From: Planctomycetaceae bacterium
Lineage (GTDB): Bacteria > Planctomycetota > Planctomycetia > Planctomycetales > Planctomycetaceae
Assembly (NCBI GenBank): GCA_021732415.1
Contig: JAKFVC010000016.1
Coordinates: forward strand, 1 to 64,000
Direction: 5' to 3'
Length of the DNA: 64,000 nt
Part shown: positions 37,335-53,661 of the stretch, piece after piece
Numbering within the stretch: position 1 is the first letter of the stretch
How the letters are laid out: each line of letters starts with the position of its first letter
Made by a program: the position numbers and the translations under genes
Notes under the pieces: generated by a model
The model's input: the letters and a program-made list of their open reading frames with translations, nothing else
Told to the model about the DNA's origin: nothing
Databases searched by the model: none

Positions 37335-37408
37335 GTCTCCATAGCTCAATTGGATAGAGCGTCGGCCTCCGAAGCCGAAGGTTGCAGGTTCGACTCCTGC
37401 TGGGGACA
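37335..37408 (+). tRNA. tRNA-Arg(CCG)
   Basis: Complete cloverleaf of 74 bases. The acceptor GTCTCCA pairs with TGGGGAC, D-arm GCTC/GAGC, anticodon arm TCGGC-CTCCGAA-GCCGA with anticodon CCG, T-arm GCAGG-TTCGACT-CCTGC, discriminator A. CCA is not encoded. The 3' half borders the integrase gene, making it the probable attachment site of the prophage. Confidence 0.95.
37360..37408 (+). other. Probable prophage attachment site (left end) in the tRNA-Arg 3' half
   Basis: The integrase gene begins 24 bases from the tRNA end and reads toward it, as in tRNA-targeting prophages. The exact crossover core cannot be defined because the second copy lies outside the window; the anticodon-to-3'-end segment is the usual core. 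Confidence 0.6.
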
Positions 37409-37431
37409 CTGAAAAACATCAGGCCGGGTGA

Positions 37432-38610
37432 TTATCCGGTCTTGCGGAACGGCAAAACGTTAGGCGAACTGTTAGGTAACTGCTGCATCCCAGCGATTGT
37501 TGCGCGCTCGATGTCAGCCAGTGCCGTCGTAACATAATACGCCATCGTGGTCTGAATGGATTCATGACGCATCAACTGCTGCAACTGCTGCGGAGTGACG
37601 AGCGGAGCCCATCGGGTGCCGAACGTCCGGCGGAAGTCCTGCGCGCTGGCGTACTTTCTTTGCGGCTCCGTTTGGCCAGGCTTGGGACGATACTCCGCGA
37701 CGATAATTTTGGCTCGCTTGCCAATCCGCCGGAGGATGTCGCCGCAGGTATCAGCCCGCATGAACTCGGTTCGCATGCCGTCAATCCGCGGCCGGAAGAC
37801 TCGACCGGTTCGCCGGCCGGAGGGGATCCGCAGCAAGAAGTCGCCAAAGTCTGGAGTGATCGGCAACAGGCGGGCCTTTGTGCTTTTGTCTTCGTTGGCC
37901 TCGATCCTCAGCCGCGGCATGTCTCCGGACAGGTCGACGCTGATTCCGTCGAAGGTCGGTTCCCAAGTCAGCCGAATCGCCTCTTCGAGTCTGAGTCCCG
38001 ACAGCCACAGGCCTTGAATCAGCTCGGTGAACGATTCTTGATCGGCTTCCTTTTTGACCTCTTCCGCCATCGCCACCAGGTACGATTTGTATTCAGCCTC
38101 GGTCAAAGCCCTGCCCTTCGACTTGTTGATACGTTTGGGCATGGCAAAGTGGGGAACGCTCGCGATCAGATCGATTTTATCCGCCCAGTTCAGGCAGGCG
38201 CGGAGCGAAGACAGGTGGCCCTTGATTGTGGCCTCAGCCTGCCCTTTCTCTCGCAGCATCGCCTGAAAACGGCTGATCATGTCCGCATCGATCAAGCTGG
38301 CATATTGCGGGGCGATGAATTTATCGAGCCACTGACGCACCGATCGAAACTTGTATTGGGTCTTCCTGGCTCGCGAACTGAGCACTTCCGCCAGGTATCG
38401 ATCGGCCACATCACCCCAAGGGGCGTTCCAGGCGTTTCGGTAGGTCCCTTCGTTGAGTTCCGATTCCAGCTTGCCGGCAAACCGCTCCGCTTCTCTTCGA
38501 ACTGCGGTTCCCGTGCTGCGGGTTTTCTTCCGGCCCGTGATGGGATCCTTCCACTGAGCCTCCCAGCAGGTGCGGCCGGCTCGCATCATCAAGTAGACGG
38601 TGACTTTCAT
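37432..38610 (-). CDS. int: Tyrosine-type site-specific integrase
   Basis: 392-residue tyrosine recombinase. The N-terminal arm-binding part (TCWEAQWKDPITGRKKTRST) is followed by a SAM-like core-binding domain (about 75-160) and the catalytic domain: Arg in LWLSGLRLEEAIRL, Arg in AQDFRRTFGTRWA, His in LMRHESIQTTMAYY, and the nucleophile Tyr in the same block. The residue that is usually His in the H-x-x-R box reads as Gln (AQDFRR), a tolerated variation in some integrases. It ends 24 bases from tRNA-Arg(CCG), which it probably uses as attB. It lies 15 bases downstream of an excisionase-like gene. Confidence 0.93.
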   Translation of the reverse strand: MKVTVYLMMRAGRTCWEAQWKDPITGRKKTRSTGTAVRREAERFAGKLESELNEGTYRNAWNAPWGDVADRYLAEVLSSRARKTQYKFRSVRQWLDKFIAPQYASLIDADMISRFQAMLREKGQAEATIKGHLSSLRACLNWADKIDLIASVPHFAMPKRINKSKGRALTEAEYKSYLVAMAEEVKKEADQESFTELIQGLWLSGLRLEEAIRLTWEPTFDGISVDLSGDMPRLRIEANEDKSTKARLLPITPDFGDFLLRIPSGRRTGRVFRPRIDGMRTEFMRADTCGDILRRIGKRAKIIVAEYRPKPGQTEPQRKYASAQDFRRTFGTRWAPLVTPQQLQQLMRHESIQTTMAYYVTTALADIERATIAGMQQLPNSSPNVLPFRKTG

Positions 38611-40252: not shown

Positions 40253-42397
40253 ATGAAGATTGATATCCACACACACACGAAGAAATGCAAGTCCGGTGAC
40301 GCGCACACGAGAGCGATAACCCCAAAGGATTTCCATGAAACAATCCTTTCAACCGAGGTTCGGATCGTCGCAATCACCAACCACAATGTGTTCGATTACC
40401 AACAGTTCGCCGAGATATGCTCGTTGATCGGGACTGACGCACAGGTTTGGCCTGGAGTTGAGCTGGACATCCTCGACGGTGGCTCCCGGGCGCATCTGCT
40501 TGTGATGGTGTGTCCGTCAAAGGCAATTGAATTTTCAGCTATCGTGGATCAGCTAACGCGGGGTTCCACACCCGATCTCTTTACCTCAACGATTGAGGAC
40601 GTGCTAAAGGCGTTTGATGAGTTGGGGCCGCTGTATGTAGCGCACTATCGTCAAAAGAAGCCCGATCTTTCAGACGGAGCAATTCAGAAGTTGATCGATG
40701 GAACGGCCAACCCGCCGCGCGTCATCAAAGAGGTTTCCAATGCTATTTCAGCAGGAATATACATATCGCACGGACACGCTTCCATATATGGCTCTGACGT
40801 TCATAACTGGGCAACCTACGCGGAAAAGTCGAGCGAGCTTCCGGACCTTCGTCTCCCGGTTGAAAGCTTCGAGCACTTTTGTTTGCTGCTACATAAAGAC
40901 CCGAATACGATCAACACAGCATTGAACCAGAAGACGCACGAGGACCTAACGCTTACCCCGTTCGGCGATAGTTCAACACTTAACATTCGTGTGTTTAATG
41001 ATATAAATGTTGTTTTCGGCCCCAAGGGGACGGGGAAATCGTGCATACTGAAAGCAATCGCCAGACACTACAAATCGAATGGGATTGATGTGTCCGTGTA
41101 TGAGTCGGCGAGTGACAAACTGGACAAGATCTTCAACATTAAAGGCGAGGGGCTGAGTTTAAATCTCTCAACATTTAAGATTGATTATTGCCAAAACGAG
41201 ATTGATGCTTTGAGGAACGCCAGAGAGAGTGATATCACAAGTATACTAAAATACGTGGCGCACTTGCAGGCTCAGCAAACAAACAAGAATGCAAAGAGTA
41301 TTCTGATCACAAGTATTGAACGTGAAGAGGAAAGCACGCCTAAACGGCTGTTCGACGAATTCTTCAATGCGAAGGAAGTCACTGACGATTTCCGGCAATT
41401 CTTTCAAGAGAGTAAGGCTACTAGGGATGTGCTCGCACCGGATGAACTCGAACTATTGGGTGGACTCTTAGGCACATTAAGTGAGAGATTGTTCGGACGC
41501 ATTGAAACAACTTATGCGCACTGGAAGGAAATATGTCTGCTAAATACGGCCATTGAACTTTTCCGAAATGAAGTCGGAAGAAAAACAGGTACGCCCACGA
41601 AGCCTACAACTACCGGCTTTCGCGACTACGCGCTGAATCGCATTGCGATTGAAATCAATGTGACAAAAATCTTGGCGAATATAGATATGCAGATTCCAGT
41701 TCAGTCCGAGATTGTGGGTAGCCTCGGAAAAGACAAAGGACAGCTAACGTTTCAAACGGAATACAAGTTTCAGAACGGAAATATCACTGACGGAAGTCTC
41801 TTGCCATTGGGTGCCATTAACAAGACGCCACAGAAGTTGTTTGTGACTGAACTGCGAAGAGTTTTTAAGCGGGTATATTCAGACGATTTGTTCGCATCTA
41901 TCGCAGCCCTTAATGCAATAGAAGAAGTAGACAAGATACCGACGATCCTCGAATTAGTTCTTTTTAAGAGATACTTTGCTCTGAATGGAGCGCCCTACGC
42001 GCCATCGAGCGGTGAGGGTTCAATGGTTATGTTGCAGAAGGAACTCGAAACTGAAAAGGATGTTTACATTTTGGATGAACCGGAACGCAGTTTAGGCAAC
42101 GAGTACATTAGCGACGTAATAGTCCCCTTGATCAAGGAGCGGGCGAAGCTCGGCAAAAAGATATTCATCTCGACACACGACGCTAATATTGCAGTTCGCA
42201 CACTGCCCTACAGTTCGATTTACCGTACTTACAATCACTTAGGGTACACAACATATATTGGCAACCCATTTTCCAATCATTTGATCAATTCAATTGATGC
42301 CAATGATCGGCGCGACTGGAAAACAGTTAGTATGACAACCTTGGAGGGTGGCAAAGAGGCTTTTGGAGAGCGAGGAACGATATATGGAAATAGTTAA
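40253..42397 (+). CDS. PHP-domain/ABC-type ATPase fusion (TrlF-like)
   Basis: 714 residues. The N-terminal PHP phosphoesterase domain (about 1-190) shows the metal-binding motifs MKIDIHTHT, AITNHNVFDY, WPGVELDI, YVAHYR and ISHGHASIYGSDVHNW. A P-loop follows at about 256-263 (GPKGTGKS). After a helical insert comes an SMC/ABC-like half: signature SSGEGSMVML (about 584-593), Walker B VYILDEPERSL (about 604-614) and H-loop ISTHDAN. This matches the family named TrlF-type AAA-like ATPase. Such proteins couple nucleotide-dependent dimerisation to a hydrolase. It is the first gene of a four-gene plus-strand unit, overlapping the next by 14 bases. Biological role unproven; nucleic-acid cleavage by the PHP domain is inference. 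Confidence 0.82.
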   Translation: MKIDIHTHTKKCKSGDAHTRAITPKDFHETILSTEVRIVAITNHNVFDYQQFAEICSLIGTDAQVWPGVELDILDGGSRAHLLVMVCPSKAIEFSAIVDQLTRGSTPDLFTSTIEDVLKAFDELGPLYVAHYRQKKPDLSDGAIQKLIDGTANPPRVIKEVSNAISAGIYISHGHASIYGSDVHNWATYAEKSSELPDLRLPVESFEHFCLLLHKDPNTINTALNQKTHEDLTLTPFGDSSTLNIRVFNDINVVFGPKGTGKSCILKAIARHYKSNGIDVSVYESASDKLDKIFNIKGEGLSLNLSTFKIDYCQNEIDALRNARESDITSILKYVAHLQAQQTNKNAKSILITSIEREEESTPKRLFDEFFNAKEVTDDFRQFFQESKATRDVLAPDELELLGGLLGTLSERLFGRIETTYAHWKEICLLNTAIELFRNEVGRKTGTPTKPTTTGFRDYALNRIAIEINVTKILANIDMQIPVQSEIVGSLGKDKGQLTFQTEYKFQNGNITDGSLLPLGAINKTPQKLFVTELRRVFKRVYSDDLFASIAALNAIEEVDKIPTILELVLFKRYFALNGAPYAPSSGEGSMVMLQKELETEKDVYILDEPERSLGNEYISDVIVPLIKERAKLGKKIFISTHDANIAVRTLPYSSIYRTYNHLGYTTYIGNPFSNHLINSIDANDRRDWKTVSMTTLEGGKEAFGERGTIYGNS

Positions 42398-42674
42398 GGC
42401 GAGTGTTATACAAGATCAGGGCAAGCATTTCATCAAAATCGATCCGGAAGGTCTTGGTATCACCATTCCGATGTCTGAAGACAAGCCAAACGAAATCAAG
42501 AGTGCTTTCAATAAGATAATAGCACGACTTAAGCTCGGTGAGTTTCAGATCGAACTTGAGGACATTGGTCCGGATCTGTTTTCTCAAGTCGCGAAAGAGT
42601 ATATTTTACAGTTGAATCGTGAAATCGAGGAGGTACATGGGGAGATGTTGCAATATCAGTTGACCGCCAATTGA
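42384..42674 (+). CDS. Small acidic protein of the PHP-ATPase operon
   Basis: 96 residues from ATG 42384, with GAGG upstream, overlapping the ATPase end by 14 bases in another frame. Sequence pattern: beta-like N-terminal half (VKASVIQDQGKHFIKIDPEG), then helices (KSAFNKIIARLKLGEFQIEL, EYILQLNREIEEVHGEML). No known family recognised. The tight overlap points to translational coupling and complex formation with the ATPase. It could be an adaptor, a regulator or an immunity subunit. Confidence 0.7.
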   Translation: MEIVKASVIQDQGKHFIKIDPEGLGITIPMSEDKPNEIKSAFNKIIARLKLGEFQIELEDIGPDLFSQVAKEYILQLNREIEEVHGEMLQYQLTAN

Positions 42675-42698
42675 ATGTCTTAAGACGTTAGAACCAAC

Positions 42699-43634
42699 AT
42701 GATTGAGCCTCGTCTAAAACACGTTGGCGCCGATGCGATCTTAGCAGAGCGAGCCAAAATGCTCGGTCTTTATGATTCGGCAAAGGCCCAAGCAGCGGAT
42801 GATCCGGTTAAGGTTGAACACGGAAACGTAGCGGAGGAGATCTTTCGCAATTACCTCAGGCGGTTCTTACCGAAGAAGTACGGGGTCGCGAAAGGACATA
42901 TTCTTACTCGTGATCTAACATACGCTGGACCGTTAGAGGAATGGGATGTAATCATTTACGACATTCTGGAATCGCCGATTCTTTATGTCCGTGATGACGC
43001 AGGGGGAACGCCGAGGCTTGGGATTCCGGCTCAGTATGTCAAAGCTGTGGTTGAGGTGAAGGCAACGCTTACGCAAAGTAGCGTCGAAAGCGTCACACAG
43101 AAATTGTTGAAGCTTGAGCAGTTCAAGCGAATTCCGGGTAACGACCGAGAACGTCGCGCGGATTTTTTTCCATGGGGCTTTTTTTCATGGGCTGTTTTCT
43201 TCGAAACTGCAACCAGAAACAGAGCTGACTATATTAAATGCCTTAACAAGCTGCAGCCGTTGGGTATCCATAAATTCACACAGTTTGAAGGGGCGATGGT
43301 CCTCCGTAGTCAAAACGATCCACACGCTTCTGGCGTTATTTCGTCAATGATGACTGGCCAGGAACGACCAAGTATTTTGTTCGAGGACGAAAGATTCGAG
43401 GCAAGTGATCCCGAATTGTATAAGTCGTCACCGGAGTTGAACGCTATGTTTAGCTTCACGGTCTCTTCTGGTTTCGGGATCAACGAATTCTCGGCCGAAA
43501 TGATGAATCTCGTTTCGCGTTTAAATGATGGTCCGATGCGGGATATAAGTGGTGGTAAAACGGATCTTGGCGGGTTCGGCCACGAGCCTGAAGGGATTGA
43601 GCGTCGCTCTTTGTGGCCTCGCCTGACTTTTTGA
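42699..43634 (+). CDS. DUF6602-like protein with PD-(D/E)XK-like spacing
   Basis: 311 residues. About residues 39-125 contain HGNVAEEIFRNYLRRFLPKK, then EEWDVIIYD, then KAVVEVKATLT. This pattern (an early Glu, an Asp in a D-V-I-I-Y-D strand, then E-V-K) is that of DUF6602 and resembles the E...D...ExK arrangement of PD-(D/E)XK nucleases, with candidate residues E46/E47, D83, E119 and K121. The remainder (130-311) is unassigned. It starts 24 bases after the small protein. The family is usually annotated as unknown; nuclease activity is my inference from residue spacing. Confidence 0.75.
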   Translation: MIEPRLKHVGADAILAERAKMLGLYDSAKAQAADDPVKVEHGNVAEEIFRNYLRRFLPKKYGVAKGHILTRDLTYAGPLEEWDVIIYDILESPILYVRDDAGGTPRLGIPAQYVKAVVEVKATLTQSSVESVTQKLLKLEQFKRIPGNDRERRADFFPWGFFSWAVFFETATRNRADYIKCLNKLQPLGIHKFTQFEGAMVLRSQNDPHASGVISSMMTGQERPSILFEDERFEASDPELYKSSPELNAMFSFTVSSGFGINEFSAEMMNLVSRLNDGPMRDISGGKTDLGGFGHEPEGIERRSLWPRLTF

Positions 43635-43750
43635 AAGCCGTTTCGACGCGGAAGGAGAAGAGTGTCAGCAATCGCGACAGAATTCAGTTCATGACACCGT
43701 TGGTCGTGCAAATGAGACAGGCCTGAGCGACTCAGAGGCGCTAAGACGAT

Positions 43751-44632
43751 ATGTACCTCCTGGACAATACAGGGAATTTGGTTGACTCCGAGTTCAGCCT
43801 CGATGTACTCGACGGATCTCCTTGTGTGATTGTCGAAAGCAGTGGCGGAGCCAGCCCGCGCCGAGAAGTGGCACGCAGAAATCCGGACTACAACAAGCTA
43901 GTAAGCCTGTTGATTCACCGGTTGTCGGTCGCTGACATCCAAATAGAAAAGATTATTCTTGATTCGGCGAAGGTCGCGAAGATTCCAGTTGCCGACCGAG
44001 TCGTGGTTCTGAATCGACCATATCCAATTGATATAAGTGCCATAGATGTCGAAGAGTTGAGACTTGAAATTGGGCGCAAGACTGCTGGGATGTTTCAAGA
44101 CTCGAACGCGAAGTCTGGCGGGAATTCGCAAAAGCGACTTTGCATCTGCCTCGTTCAAGCTGTAATGCCCATTCAACTTCTGGTCGCACCACACAGTCGA
44201 ATGTCGGCCGATGACATTCCTGACAATTCGCCAGGGCTCACTGAAACGGAGAGAGCGTATCTACGTACCGCGCGTATCGGACAAGGCAGATTTCGAACAA
44301 ACCTTCTTGAAGCATACCGGAAGACCTGTCCGGTTACAGGTATTTTACATCCCGAACTGCTCGTCGCATCGCACATTAAACCATGGAATGCGTGTACGAA
44401 TCTCGAACGGTTGGATCCAAATAATGGCATTTTGCTGTCGGCCTTGATTGATCGGCTGTTCGATCGCGGGCTGATCACTTTCAATAACGACGGGAGTATC
44501 CTGCCGTCGCCTGTGCTGTGCGCTGCGGATAGGGAGAAGGCTCAGCTTCACAATGCAATTAAGTTTGCACTATCGAGTAAGAGTCAGCGATTCATGGAAT
44601 ATCATCGTGTCTTTCAGTTCAAGCGAGAGTAA
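43751..44632 (+). CDS. HNH endonuclease (HNH_2-type) with unknown N-terminal domain
   Basis: 293 residues. The C-terminal third has the HNH_2 pattern: GQGRFRTNLLEAYRKTCPVT, LLVASHIKPWNACTN, LDPNNGILLSALIDRLFDRG, LITFNNDGSI. The His of ASHIKPW, Asn of DPNNG and Asp of IDRLFDRG are the expected catalytic/metal residues. The N-terminal domain (about 1-150; DVLDGSPCVIVESSGG, RRNPDYNKLVSLLIHRLSV) is of a kind found ahead of HNH modules in other bacterial proteins and may recognise DNA, but I cannot name it. It lies 116 bases after the DUF6602 gene on the same strand. It probably cleaves DNA; the trigger and any modification dependence are unknown. Confidence 0.82.
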   Translation: MYLLDNTGNLVDSEFSLDVLDGSPCVIVESSGGASPRREVARRNPDYNKLVSLLIHRLSVADIQIEKIILDSAKVAKIPVADRVVVLNRPYPIDISAIDVEELRLEIGRKTAGMFQDSNAKSGGNSQKRLCICLVQAVMPIQLLVAPHSRMSADDIPDNSPGLTETERAYLRTARIGQGRFRTNLLEAYRKTCPVTGILHPELLVASHIKPWNACTNLERLDPNNGILLSALIDRLFDRGLITFNNDGSILPSPVLCAADREKAQLHNAIKFALSSKSQRFMEYHRVFQFKRE

Positions 44633-49895: not shown

Positions 49896-52391
49896 TTAGT
49901 TCTCCTCAACGATCGTCAGGCCGATTCGCTTGGCGATGTCCTTCAGCAGTTCTACGGTCTTGTTAAGCAACTTGGCGGCTTCTTTTTGCGCGGCTAACTG
50001 CTGTGTTTCCACGTTCGTTGTGGACGCGTTGACCGCTTTGGCGATCGTGCTGGCCGCCCCTGAACTGTTGCGTGTATTGGCCGAAGTGCTATCGTTATAG
50101 GAGCCCCGGCCAAGCTCCTCGGACATGGCCTTCTGAGCCTTCCCGATAGTCTCATCTGACACGGGATTAGCCTTTGCGGCCGCGGCCGCTTGAGCCGCTA
50201 GCGCTGCCAATTGAGCCTCGGCGGCTGCAATCGCGGGATTTGAATCGCGATTCTTGGCTTGCTCTTCCCGTTGCCGGCGCTCGTCGGCTCGTTTGCGAAA
50301 TCCAGGTTCATCGCCGGCATTCGCAATGGCATTGTTCCGAGCATCTTCGCGACCTTCCGCACCGTTGTTGATCTTATCCCGCTCCGCCTGCAGCGTTTGA
50401 TTTAGCGACTCTTCGTCCACATCGCCGAATACCCCAGTGTGGGCAATGAATTGGGCCAGGCCACCGGAAATATCCTGCCACTTGTTCCGAAGCGTCAGCC
50501 CGAACTTATCGAACGCACCAATGAGATAATTCAGGGCCACGTCCCAGATGGCTTTGATGTTGGTACAGACCGCATCAACGGCGCCTTCGATGTAGACCAT
50601 GCTGACGTCCCACCCCGTCTTGAGCGCATCGCAGCCCTTCAGCCAGGCCACATTCAAGCCAGCCCAGAGGACGTCCATCGCTAACTGAATGTTGCCACCT
50701 TGGATCGCCTCCGAGATCCCTTTGAAGGTCGTGTGAGCCGTTCCCAATAGATCAAAGAACACCTGCTTGGCCGATTCGAAACCGGACTTCGCAACACTGA
50801 CGATCTGCCCCCAGAGTGTGGAGAAATTCGCTCCGACCTGGCCCATGTATCCGGCAATCGCACCGGGGAATGTCGACACGTAATCGATGATCTCACCGAA
50901 GGTTCCCGTGGCGTATTGAGCGATACTGCCGAATGCGCTGATGACAGATTTCAGGATGGCATCACCTGCCCCTGTGAAGTACAGGGCAGCAGCCAAAGCT
51001 CCGATGGCCGCGATGGCAATCGCAATCGGATTGGATAGCAACCAAACTGCCGTACTGAGACCCGTTACCGCTGCGCTTGCTGTGGCCGACGCGCCGGTCA
51101 ACAACATATAGACCTTCACCAAGCCGATTGCCGATCCGTGGCTGAGGCTGATGGCCGTCGACACAACCTTGAACGCAGTGCTCAGGGAAACCATTCCTGT
51201 CGCCAATAATGCTCCGGCCACGGTCATAGCGGCCGTCGTGACGGCGGCCGTTTTCAGAATTGCCATCGTTAAGCTGATGGCCACTCCAAGAACCTTCGTC
51301 GCCAACGAACAAGCCGTTGACGCGATGGTAAAGGCTACCGTGGTCGTCGACAGCAACCGAAAGGCGATTCCAACCGCGGACGCGATGCCCCCCAATACCT
51401 TTAGAACGGCACTCGCTACGGCCACCGCGGTATTGACCACCGCGACAGCCGCCCCGAAGGCATAGACCGCAATGCTAGCGATTCCGAAGGCCAGTTTGAT
51501 CGTCGGCCCCATGATCAACGCCGCGGCCCCAATGGCAGCGAAACCAGCAGCAGCCCCGGCAAGTGCCGTGACAATCATGGCCGCCTGTGGCCCGATCTGG
51601 CGATTCTTATCAATCCATTTCGCAACACTGGCAGCAGCCTGGGTCACGTAATGAATAATTGGGAGCAAGGCGGGAGCCAGGGCGGATCCGAACTTCGTGA
51701 TGATCGCCCCGACGCTTTGATTCAGGCCGGCGAACGCCTGGGCGAGCACGGCCGCCGCCTTCGCATCACGACTGGACATCGTAACGCCCAACGCCTCGGC
51801 CTCTTTCCGCAGCTTGACAATTCCCGACGCCCCTTTGTCGAGGAGAGGAGCCAGTTGATTGGCGGATCCGCCGAAAATGGCCTGCATCAAGTCTTGCCGC
51901 TGGCCGTGGTCTGTGATTCCCTTTAGTGCGTCCGCAAACTGCTCGAATTGCTGAGTCGGTAGCATCCCCTTCAGGTCGGCTGCCACCAACCCGAGTTTAG
52001 TCAACGTCGCGACGGCGTCGGCATCTCCCTTCGCTGCCTTGCTGACCAGATCGGACATCGACGACAGTCCCGATTCCAACGTCTGCAGATTGCCGCCGGT
52101 GACCGTCGCCGCGTGTCCCAATTCACTGACGTTTTTGGTTGTGTCGCCGACTCGCAACGCAACGTTATTGATCGCCTGTCCGGAAGTCGCAAACGACTTA
52201 GTCGCAGCAATCAGAGCGCCGCCGAGCCCTCCGGCCAGTCCGCCAAACTTGGCACCGATCGAAAGCGCGTTCTGACCGAACAGTTTTAACCGCCGTTCGG
52301 CCGCGTCTGCGATCTTATTAAAAGGCGAGTCATCGCCGCCGATGACGACTATGGCACCGCCGGCGATGACGTCGCTTGCGCTTTTACCCAT
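49896..52391 (-). CDS. Phage tail tape measure protein
   Basis: 831 residues. The N-terminal part (about 40-200) resembles the TP901-type tape measure core: ALRVGDTTKNVSELGHAATV, DLMQAIFGGSANQLAPLLD, AGLNQSVGAIITKFGSALAP. Long Ala/Val/Ile-rich hydrophobic segments follow (about 215-480), with a helical C-terminus rich in Gln/Glu (QTLQAERDKINNGAEGREDA). In a tail, the length of this protein sets tail length. The start overlaps the end of the tail chaperone extension by 43 bases, the usual G/GT-H arrangement. Confidence 0.88.
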   Translation of the reverse strand: MGKSASDVIAGGAIVVIGGDDSPFNKIADAAERRLKLFGQNALSIGAKFGGLAGGLGGALIAATKSFATSGQAINNVALRVGDTTKNVSELGHAATVTGGNLQTLESGLSSMSDLVSKAAKGDADAVATLTKLGLVAADLKGMLPTQQFEQFADALKGITDHGQRQDLMQAIFGGSANQLAPLLDKGASGIVKLRKEAEALGVTMSSRDAKAAAVLAQAFAGLNQSVGAIITKFGSALAPALLPIIHYVTQAAASVAKWIDKNRQIGPQAAMIVTALAGAAAGFAAIGAAALIMGPTIKLAFGIASIAVYAFGAAVAVVNTAVAVASAVLKVLGGIASAVGIAFRLLSTTTVAFTIASTACSLATKVLGVAISLTMAILKTAAVTTAAMTVAGALLATGMVSLSTAFKVVSTAISLSHGSAIGLVKVYMLLTGASATASAAVTGLSTAVWLLSNPIAIAIAAIGALAAALYFTGAGDAILKSVISAFGSIAQYATGTFGEIIDYVSTFPGAIAGYMGQVGANFSTLWGQIVSVAKSGFESAKQVFFDLLGTAHTTFKGISEAIQGGNIQLAMDVLWAGLNVAWLKGCDALKTGWDVSMVYIEGAVDAVCTNIKAIWDVALNYLIGAFDKFGLTLRNKWQDISGGLAQFIAHTGVFGDVDEESLNQTLQAERDKINNGAEGREDARNNAIANAGDEPGFRKRADERRQREEQAKNRDSNPAIAAAEAQLAALAAQAAAAAKANPVSDETIGKAQKAMSEELGRGSYNDSTSANTRNSSGAASTIAKAVNASTTNVETQQLAAQKEAAKLLNKTVELLKDIAKRIGLTIVEEN

Positions 52392-52807
52392 GACGTGTCT
52401 TCCGTGACTTCAAATGCCTGCCCGCCGAGGCCTGCCAGCAGCAGATTGGCGGGTTTGGACTTCCTTAAGGCTCGTTTTTTCTTGCTAATCAAGACCGCGT
52501 GGAAGTCCTGATACTCTTTTGGTTGCGGTTGTTTCCTGGTGTCCCGATGCGGATTAAACAGCAGCATGGCCAACAATGCCGTATGGTCCCAGCGGTCCGA
52601 ATCATGACCATCGGCCATCAACCGCAGTTGTCTCAGGGTGTAGCCGCGGGGGTCGATTCCGAGCTTGCCGCCGAGGCGATAGCACTCTCCAATGAGTTCG
52701 CGGTAATTGAGGCCAGGGCTTGACTCTGCTGGTCCTGGACCTGATCCACGATGTGCCAGAGTTTCGCTACCATCTCGCGCCAGATCTCCTGCTGGCGCCG
52801 GTTCGGG
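52349..52807 (-). CDS. Tail assembly chaperone T extension, made by -1 frameshift
   Basis: Open frame of 152 residues in the -1 frame relative to the upstream chaperone. The first 110 bases or so encode a Pro/Gly/Ala-rich linker, followed by a compact domain GLNYRELIGECYRLGGKLGI, DPRGYTLRQLRLMADG, TALLAMLLFNPHRDT. No good start codon precedes the conserved part, which begins upstream of the first available initiator at 52621, so independent translation would truncate the domain. Fusion to the chaperone through the slip site at 52807-52813 gives a 249-residue protein, the equivalent of lambda gpGT, which bridges tail tube and tape measure during tail assembly. Confidence 0.8.
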   Translation of the reverse strand, partial: PEPAPAGDLARDGSETLAHRGSGPGPAESSPGLNYRELIGECYRLGGKLGIDPRGYTLRQLRLMADGHDSDRWDHTALLAMLLFNPHRDTRKQPQPKEYQDFHAVLISKKKRALRKSKPANLLLAGLGGQAFEVTEDTSWVKAQATSSPAVP

Positions 52808-53097
52808 AAAAAATCGATGTAGTCCTCTATCAGTGCCTTTGCGGCCAGCTCTAACGCTTCTCCGCGGATGGAATCACAGAAGGCCGCGCGCTGAGCAACA
52901 TCGTCCGTGTACTCCTGCAATGAACACCAGAGGACCTTGATCAGCAGCAGGGGATCGTTAAACAGTCGATTGAGTTGATTCAACTCGTCGCCAAACAACT
53001 TCGTCATGTCGAAGTCGGTGACGAGTTTGATGCGTTCAATCGTTCCGTGTGTGATGCTGATCACCCAATCTTTGCCGTTGCTCTTGAAAATCTTCAT
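52633..53097 (-). CDS. Tail assembly chaperone (lambda gpG-like position)
   Basis: 154 residues from ATG 53097, with GAAGG nine bases upstream; the longer open frame to 53190 crosses a hairpin and is rejected. The protein begins MKIFKSNGKDWVISITHGTI and is otherwise helical (QLNRLFNDPLLLIKVLWCSL, ALELAAKALIEDYIDFF). It lies between tail tube and tape measure, the invariant place of tail assembly chaperones. Around codon 96 a slippery heptamer allows part of the ribosomes to switch to the -1 frame. Family identity is inferred from synteny rather than recognised sequence. Confidence 0.8.
   Translation of the reverse strand: MKIFKSNGKDWVISITHGTIERIKLVTDFDMTKLFGDELNQLNRLFNDPLLLIKVLWCSLQEYTDDVAQRAAFCDSIRGEALELAAKALIEDYIDFFPNRRQQEIWREMVAKLWHIVDQVQDQQSQALASITANSLESAIASAASSESTPAATP
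52777..52813 (-). promoter_or_regulatory. Programmed -1 ribosomal frameshift element
   Basis: Read on the minus strand: heptamer T-TTT-TTC (52813-52807) in the correct phase (GAT TTT TTC), an 8-base spacer CCGAACCG, and then GCGCCAG-CAGGAGAT-CTGGCGC (52798-52777), a perfect 7-bp stem with an 8-base loop. The -1 frame is open from the heptamer to 52349. All three classical elements are present. Confidence 0.82.
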
Positions 53098-53193: not shown

Positions 53194-53661
53194 CTACGTC
53201 TTAACGAACGGCGTCACGTAATGACCGCCGTTGTTCGCGGCCGGCTTGGCCTCGAAGGCAATCGTCACGGTGTCGTCGATGGGTTGGGACTCATCCTTTT
53301 TCGTGATGATGTAGTAGTCCCGATTGCCCCTTGTTCCGACCACATTGATATCGCCATCGACAATTGCCAGTTCAATGGGCGTGCCGTTGGCGTAGCAGTT
53401 GATGAAGTACGCGAGGACAGCGTCGGCGGTTCCCTTGTGTTGCACCGAAGTCCAAGTCAGGCCACGTTCACGCGAGCCTGGCAGGTAAACATTGTTTGGC
53501 CACGCCCCGCGCGTTTTGACCTGGGCGGCCGTCCGGGCGTCCGGGCCGTCGAGATCCCCAACGTTTACGTTCTCCACCCACGTCGGGCTGGCGTAGTCCG
53601 CCGAGTTGTAATACATCTTCGCTTCGCCACCGACGAAGGCGTCACCGTTTTCCTGTCCCAT
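53194..53661 (-). CDS. Major tail tube protein
   Basis: 155 residues, beta-rich, with the character of phage tail tube proteins (EAKMYYNSADYASPTWVENV, TWTSVQHKGTADAVLAYFIN, DYYIITKKDESQPIDDTVTI, AFEAKPAAN). The position after connector genes and before the chaperones supports the call. A hairpin attenuator follows, as expected for the most abundant tail protein. No invading sequence noted. Confidence 0.75.
   Translation of the reverse strand: MGQENGDAFVGGEAKMYYNSADYASPTWVENVNVGDLDGPDARTAAQVKTRGAWPNNVYLPGSRERGLTWTSVQHKGTADAVLAYFINCYANGTPIELAIVDGDINVVGTRGNRDYYIITKKDESQPIDDTVTIAFEAKPAANNGGHYVTPFVKT

Follow-up and report, generated by a model that had tools for sequence, protein, structure and literature searches.

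Two overlapping open reading frames on the minus strand of the window, by which we mean the whole 64,000-nucleotide stretch of DNA analyzed here, belong to a siphovirus-like planctomycete prophage and are very probably expressed as one gene by programmed -1 ribosomal frameshifting of the lambda G/GT kind. The slip site, the frame relation, the candidate stimulators and the predicted products, considered together, point to ordinary lambda G/GT-type frameshifting. This is also how the original prediction read the locus, and relatives agree with it in the direction of the slip, the heptamer, the position of the gene and the class of product. As far as our searches show, the frameshift signal is a first for both the protein family and the host group, and the mechanism is an ordinary one.

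The sequence T_TTT_TTC is located in X_XXY_YYZ phase within the 0-frame ORF (Table 1) and is followed by an 8-nt spacer (52806-52799) and a perfect 7-bp stem (52798-52792 paired with 52783-52777), each of which had been predicted. A -1 slip at the heptamer would join the N-terminal part of the 0-frame protein to the -1 extension, generating a predicted fusion of 249 residues in addition to the 154-residue 0-frame product; both this fusion length and the 152 open codons of the -1 frame, as originally given, were recovered by reading the frames. The 0-frame stop is located 57 codons after the slip. Between the slip and the folded domain, which begins near 52708, the -1 frame of the window contains no ATG, GTG or TTG. 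Its earliest potential starts, TTG 52621 and ATG 52618, are both inside the folded domain, and the claim that the -1 domain begins ahead of any start codon was thereby borne out.

Table 1. Features at and around the proposed frameshift site (window coordinates)
Feature	Position	Strand	Basis
0-frame ORF, 154 aa, modeled as a gpG-like tail assembly chaperone	52636..53097, ATG 53097, stop 52635-52633	minus	ORF, conserved family A2/A4
Slippery heptamer T_TTT_TTC	52807..52813	minus	in X_XXY_YYZ phase; same site in 167/226 anchored loci
-1 extension, 152 codons, putative gpT-like part of fusion	52352..52807, stop 52351-52349	minus	relatives; Phage_tail_T matches in family members
-1 extension from residue 34 on: predicted helices 35-116, then low-confidence tail	52352..52708	minus	AlphaFold2 on A5
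Hairpin, 7-bp perfect stem, 8-nt loop, putative downstream stimulator	52777..52798	minus	8 nt past heptamer; structure peak in relatives
SD-like AGAGGA, putative upstream stimulator	52823..52828	minus	9 nt before heptamer; family-level synonymous-codon test
Tape measure protein, 831 aa	49896..52391	minus	PHROG tape measure matches, best E 8.9e-21
Probable tail tube protein, directly upstream	53194..53661	minus	iterated profile, relatives
Integrase (tyrosine)	37432-38610	minus	abuts tRNA-Arg
tRNA-Arg (ccg)	37335-37409		next to integrase

The -1 part was detected in 15 of 99 related genomes; within the class 80 of 397 genomes contained it, and within a phylum sample 27 of 294 (matches counted per genome), the window's own genome being included each time. 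Viral contigs added at least 558 stretches with this part. Named relatives, among the best 80 of 144, were almost all planctomycete assemblies, and the window's host is assigned through the kinship of contigs. Several copies were present in some genomes (up to 5 in G303, 4 in G114 and 6 in G616), which represent several related prophages in one host. A first scan of 46 viral-contig stretches with the window protein alone yielded no relative, and searches of 50,697 named phage records gave no match to the -1 part of one relative (L206) or to the window's 0-frame protein.

Relatives were taken from the best 80 of 144 in one search and the best 80 of the at least 558 viral-contig stretches. The first locus set comprised 124 loci, 109 of them distinct by -1 domain DNA, from which L037 and L123 were dropped for want of a 0-frame match; two contig-edge places (G195:C86 and G131:C212) were left out of the locus set. 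The second comprised 160 loci, of which 123 were kept after removal of 33 duplicates and 4 loci with no 0-frame match. The -1 relation holds in 229 of the 230 distinct loci that contain both parts and is also kept in metagenomic viral contigs; none has a +1 relation, and a single locus, L015, is in frame. L015 has TTC TTC at the site and reads straight through, and its sequence marks it as a natural fusion of both chaperone parts that dispenses with the slip. The anchored set used below contains 226 loci; L090, L120 and L176 could not be anchored and were left out, and L085 and L094, whose contigs end nearby and whose 0-frame match is weak (E about 2), were kept. A -1 stop between the slip site and the domain, the observation that the original prediction had set against itself, was found in 2 of the 226 (L025 and L167), and these two may have decayed. 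In two loci, L006 and L013, the open -1 frame starts right at the heptamer.

At the slip site, 167 of the anchored loci read T_TTT_TTC, 2 T_TTT_TTT, 7 A_AAT_TTT and 35 a T_TTY tetramer; a canonical heptamer is present in 176 loci, and in 15 the site holds neither this nor a T_TTY tetramer. Where two Phe codons are read at the site, T_TTT_TTC was used by 167 of 174 loci, though TTT accounts for 174 of the 831 upstream Phe codons in the same genes, and by 42 of 48 cluster representatives. Loci with xF[SCT]P have a T before the Phe codon in 34 of 34 cases (3.0 expected; the 7 A_AAT_TTT loci included) and in 12 of 12 cluster representatives (1.3 expected); in T6 loci this T is present by construction and was not counted as evidence. 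The xF[SCT]P class also exhibited the Shine-Dalgarno (SD) signal (z -2.5, 34 loci) and a weaker structure signal (z -0.69 at +3). At least 20 changes of slip-site class were required on a tree of 127 rows (126 of the 226 loci plus L015), a rough reconstruction made in quick mode with no mixture model and with many long branches, on which the starred branches force only 2 or 3 changes per class. Judged from these sequences, slip-site classes turn over while the -1 layout stays. TTTTTTC is common in its own right (8 occurrences in the window, 10.25 expected); the decisive evidence is the conservation of the frame in all but one locus together with the preference for T_TTT_TTC.

A hairpin at +3 to +11 as good as the window's turned up in 4 of 2000 dinucleotide shuffles and at 9 of the locus's 3411 start positions, but over the 60 nt downstream the minimum free energy is ordinary (z -0.04). 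Across relatives, RNA structure was enriched in 45-nt segments starting about 5 nt past the heptamer (mean z -1.02, 73 loci). The z value at +5 was -1.24 in the second set (97 loci) and -1.08 in 44 cluster representatives, and in all three sets the signal was near 0 by +12 to +20. Strong perfect stems, differing in sequence, were present in a fraction of 0.35 of 169 loci, as compared with 0.08 in shuffles, and in 0.32 of the 44 cluster representatives, as compared with 0.05 expected. Conservation of both heptamer and stem had been proposed as a check on the original prediction: the heptamer is kept in most relatives, whereas a strong perfect stem is lacking in about two thirds of the cluster representatives.

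Upstream pairing was evaluated by redrawing synonymous codons and comparing anti-SD pairing upstream of the site with these nulls. Pairing was -6.02 as compared with -4.42 expected (z -6.0, 0 of 100 nulls, 73 loci), with seven control positions at z -0.4 to +2.5; the test gave z -7.6 in the second set (n = 97) and z -3.3 in the 44 cluster representatives, with three control positions at z +0.6 to +2.4. Because the loci are related, these z values overstate independence, for which the cluster representatives are a partial remedy. A plain count of SD cores gave a weak difference (142 of 169 at the site vs 106 of 169 at a control position). The window's own AGAGGA is unremarkable, with 430 of 1000 nulls as good, and its role there is therefore argued from the family. 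A 14-letter anti-SD pattern was absent from the host genome, and an 11-letter core was found at many places in all 11 genomes and so proves nothing about the host anti-SD. A 16S covariance model had no match in 3 genomes, two of them single-contig (G007 and G042); for these two the missing match probably reflects a limit of the search and not biology. The codon and folding comparisons indicate that an SD-like element upstream and structure downstream are favored across the family, and the element about 9 nt upstream probably helps slippage in the window.

AlphaFold2 applied to the family of -1 parts (A5) generated confident helices at residues 35-116 after a low-confidence linker (residues 1-33). 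Phage_tail_T, the Pfam family of lambda gpT, weakly matched 47 of 49 A5 members at E<=0.1 (best 5.1e-5) and, at the same threshold, 9 of 16 members of A1 (best 2e-5); PHROG 5297 (tail protein) matched 5 of 16 members. These matches were all to other members of the family, as direct Pfam and PHROG searches of the window's two proteins gave no match, and a Phage_tail_T search of the window's genome found none, its own -1 part being unmatched. Foldseek on viral models and VIA-align on the PDB gave no convincing match to the -1 domain, and PDB sequence profiles gave none for this domain and two chance-level matches only for the 0-frame protein. By these family matches the -1 domain weakly resembles the lambda gpT family. 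When the 0-frame model (mean pLDDT 81.2) was compared with viral models, tail assembly chaperone names topped the list (best E 6.1e-3); the best solved structure was the HK97 chaperone 2ob9 (Z 3.8, rmsd 4.0, 77 aligned), a weak match tied with the unrelated 5ee5. As modeled, the 0-frame protein resembles tail assembly chaperones. Its Ser/Pro-rich conserved end overlaps, by eye, the ELAG..GIDP stretch conserved in the -1 domain, of which it may in part be a shadow.

The order of genes is probable tail tube, chaperone and tape measure, and the tape measure ATG is located inside the -1 ORF with an overlap of 43 nt, stop included. The window's tail tube candidate gave no convincing direct family match. 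An iterated profile built from it found upstream genes in 151 of 215 loci, and the upstream gene of L006 belongs to Pfam Phage_tail_2, a tail tube family; the link to the window's own gene is made via these relatives. The wider module contains a Phage_H_T_join_3 protein, a capsid protein and a cement protein, and a lambda-family portal (PF05136, E 3.7e-48) and a GpA-type terminase are located on the same contig beyond the window. The tRNA-Arg and the adjoining integrase (37335-38610) likely represent the attachment site and left end of the integrated prophage. Plus-strand genes at 40253-44632, opposite to the structural genes, encode an AAA/ABC-type ATPase (714 aa), a DUF6602 protein and an HNH_2 protein; located inside the prophage, they are possibly defence cargo. 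In L013 the order differs, and the ORF following the -1 part looks by eye like a tail-completion protein and not the start of a tape measure gene.

The layout, the conservation of the frame, the family-level selection on the site and its stimulators, and the T-family resemblance are directly supported by these comparisons, and they bear on how else the T-like domain might be expressed. RNA polymerase could slip on the six consecutive T residues within the heptamer, placing the T-like domain in frame in some mRNAs. The A_AAT_TTT and T_TTY tetramer loci contain no T6 run, yet their -1 layout stays; moreover, the SD-like and hairpin signals are positioned at ribosomal distances, and transcriptional slippage has been linked to longer runs (An over 7, Tn over 8; available text of PMC3711429). 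We consider polymerase slippage very improbable.

The -1 ORF could also be a second gene translated from its own start, for which the TTG and ATG in the -1 frame are candidates, and some phages have the chaperone pair as two separate genes. Both starts, however, are inside the domain that folds from residue 34 on, and 211 of the 226 anchored loci have no ATG or GTG between slip and domain, leaving separate initiation with scarcely any likelihood. That a single ORF has decayed or was wrongly sequenced, so that the frameshift arose by chance, could appeal to the in-frame fusion in L015 and to the tendency of prophages to decay, but it is contradicted by the near-universal -1 relation, metagenomic viral contigs included, and we accord it practically no credence.

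The YFPE/FLPE clade, whose 16 loci have an intact -1 domain, is unusual. These loci exhibited no SD enrichment (z +1.5; 16 loci) and no selected T before the Phe codon (4 vs 3.7 expected), and in 12 of the 16 there is no X_XXY_YYZ heptamer in the overlap, the exceptions being T_TTC_CCG in L060, L062 and L069 and GGGAAAC elsewhere in L058. When L080 was included (17 loci), a structure peak of z about -1.5 to -1.6 started 6-15 nt after the motif start, and C_CCG at the site was common to all. The clade's hairpin was searched for compensatory changes; by eye the changes looked one-sided. Having the -1 layout and a hairpin with no SD enrichment, no selected T and mostly no heptamer, these loci might shift at a weak site such as the C_CCG Pro codon or by an undescribed slip rule, a tentative proposal that we think rather unlikely.

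For long-tailed phages, frameshifting in the tail assembly chaperone genes was reportedly described by Xu, Hendrix and Duda in 2004. The slippery heptamer of lambda is GGGAAAG, from which the T_TTT_TTC of the window differs; lambda is not known to use an SD-like stimulator, whereas the window has an SD-like candidate. The proteins of the window have also diverged too far from lambda for direct Pfam or PHROG matches. The E. coli dnaX signal is in another gene, its heptamer is A_AAA_AAG and its 0-frame stop follows soon after the slip, as compared with 57 codons later in the window. The window is like dnaX in having an upstream SD-like element, a slippery heptamer and a downstream hairpin, and frameshifting of 6 and 7% is given for two chaperone genes (both from the available text of PMC3711429). 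With lambda G/GT and the chaperones of long-tailed phages the window shares the -1 direction and a position flanked by the tail tube and tape measure genes, along with a short and an extended product (both predicted in the window) and a T-like domain encoded only in -1; in lambda the two products occur at a molar ratio of 30:1, and the T domain encoded in -1 binds the tail tube protein (available part of PMC5009743). The Z_ZZN signals of the IS3 family include the T_TTC, T_TTT tetramer class found in 35 relatives, but they belong to transposase genes and the window itself uses a full heptamer; in E. coli these tetramers shift with a strong stimulator, and C_CCG shifts only 1.8- to 3.6-fold above background (available part of PMC4066793). 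A literature search, with subscription journals mostly outside its scope, found nothing joining frameshift, tail assembly chaperone, planctomycetes and prophage, in line with the original comment on how poorly such examples are described in planctomycetes.

From the evidence for programmed ribosomal frameshifting we infer that slippage takes place, how often it does so and what the products do, as follows. Most ribosomes would stay in the 0 frame and synthesize the 154-aa tail assembly chaperone, and a minority, with tRNA-Phe in the P and A sites on T_TTT_TTC, would slip back one base, paused by the hairpin spaced 8 nt downstream and probably helped by the SD-like element. Slipped ribosomes would generate the 249-aa fusion, in which a gpT-like helical domain is attached by a flexible linker. 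The lambda system suggests, by analogy, that the short form would serve to coat the tape measure protein and that recruitment of tail tube subunits would fall to the T-like domain.

Taken together, the G/GT rule would extend to phages of a phylum for which two queries of the 50,697 named phage records found no relative. The family provides a natural mutation series, with one site, one frame relation and, on the rough tree, at least 20 changes of slip-site class, and it can therefore be asked which slippery sites and stimulators are sufficient under natural conditions. For annotators, the two ORFs in such prophages would be one gene.
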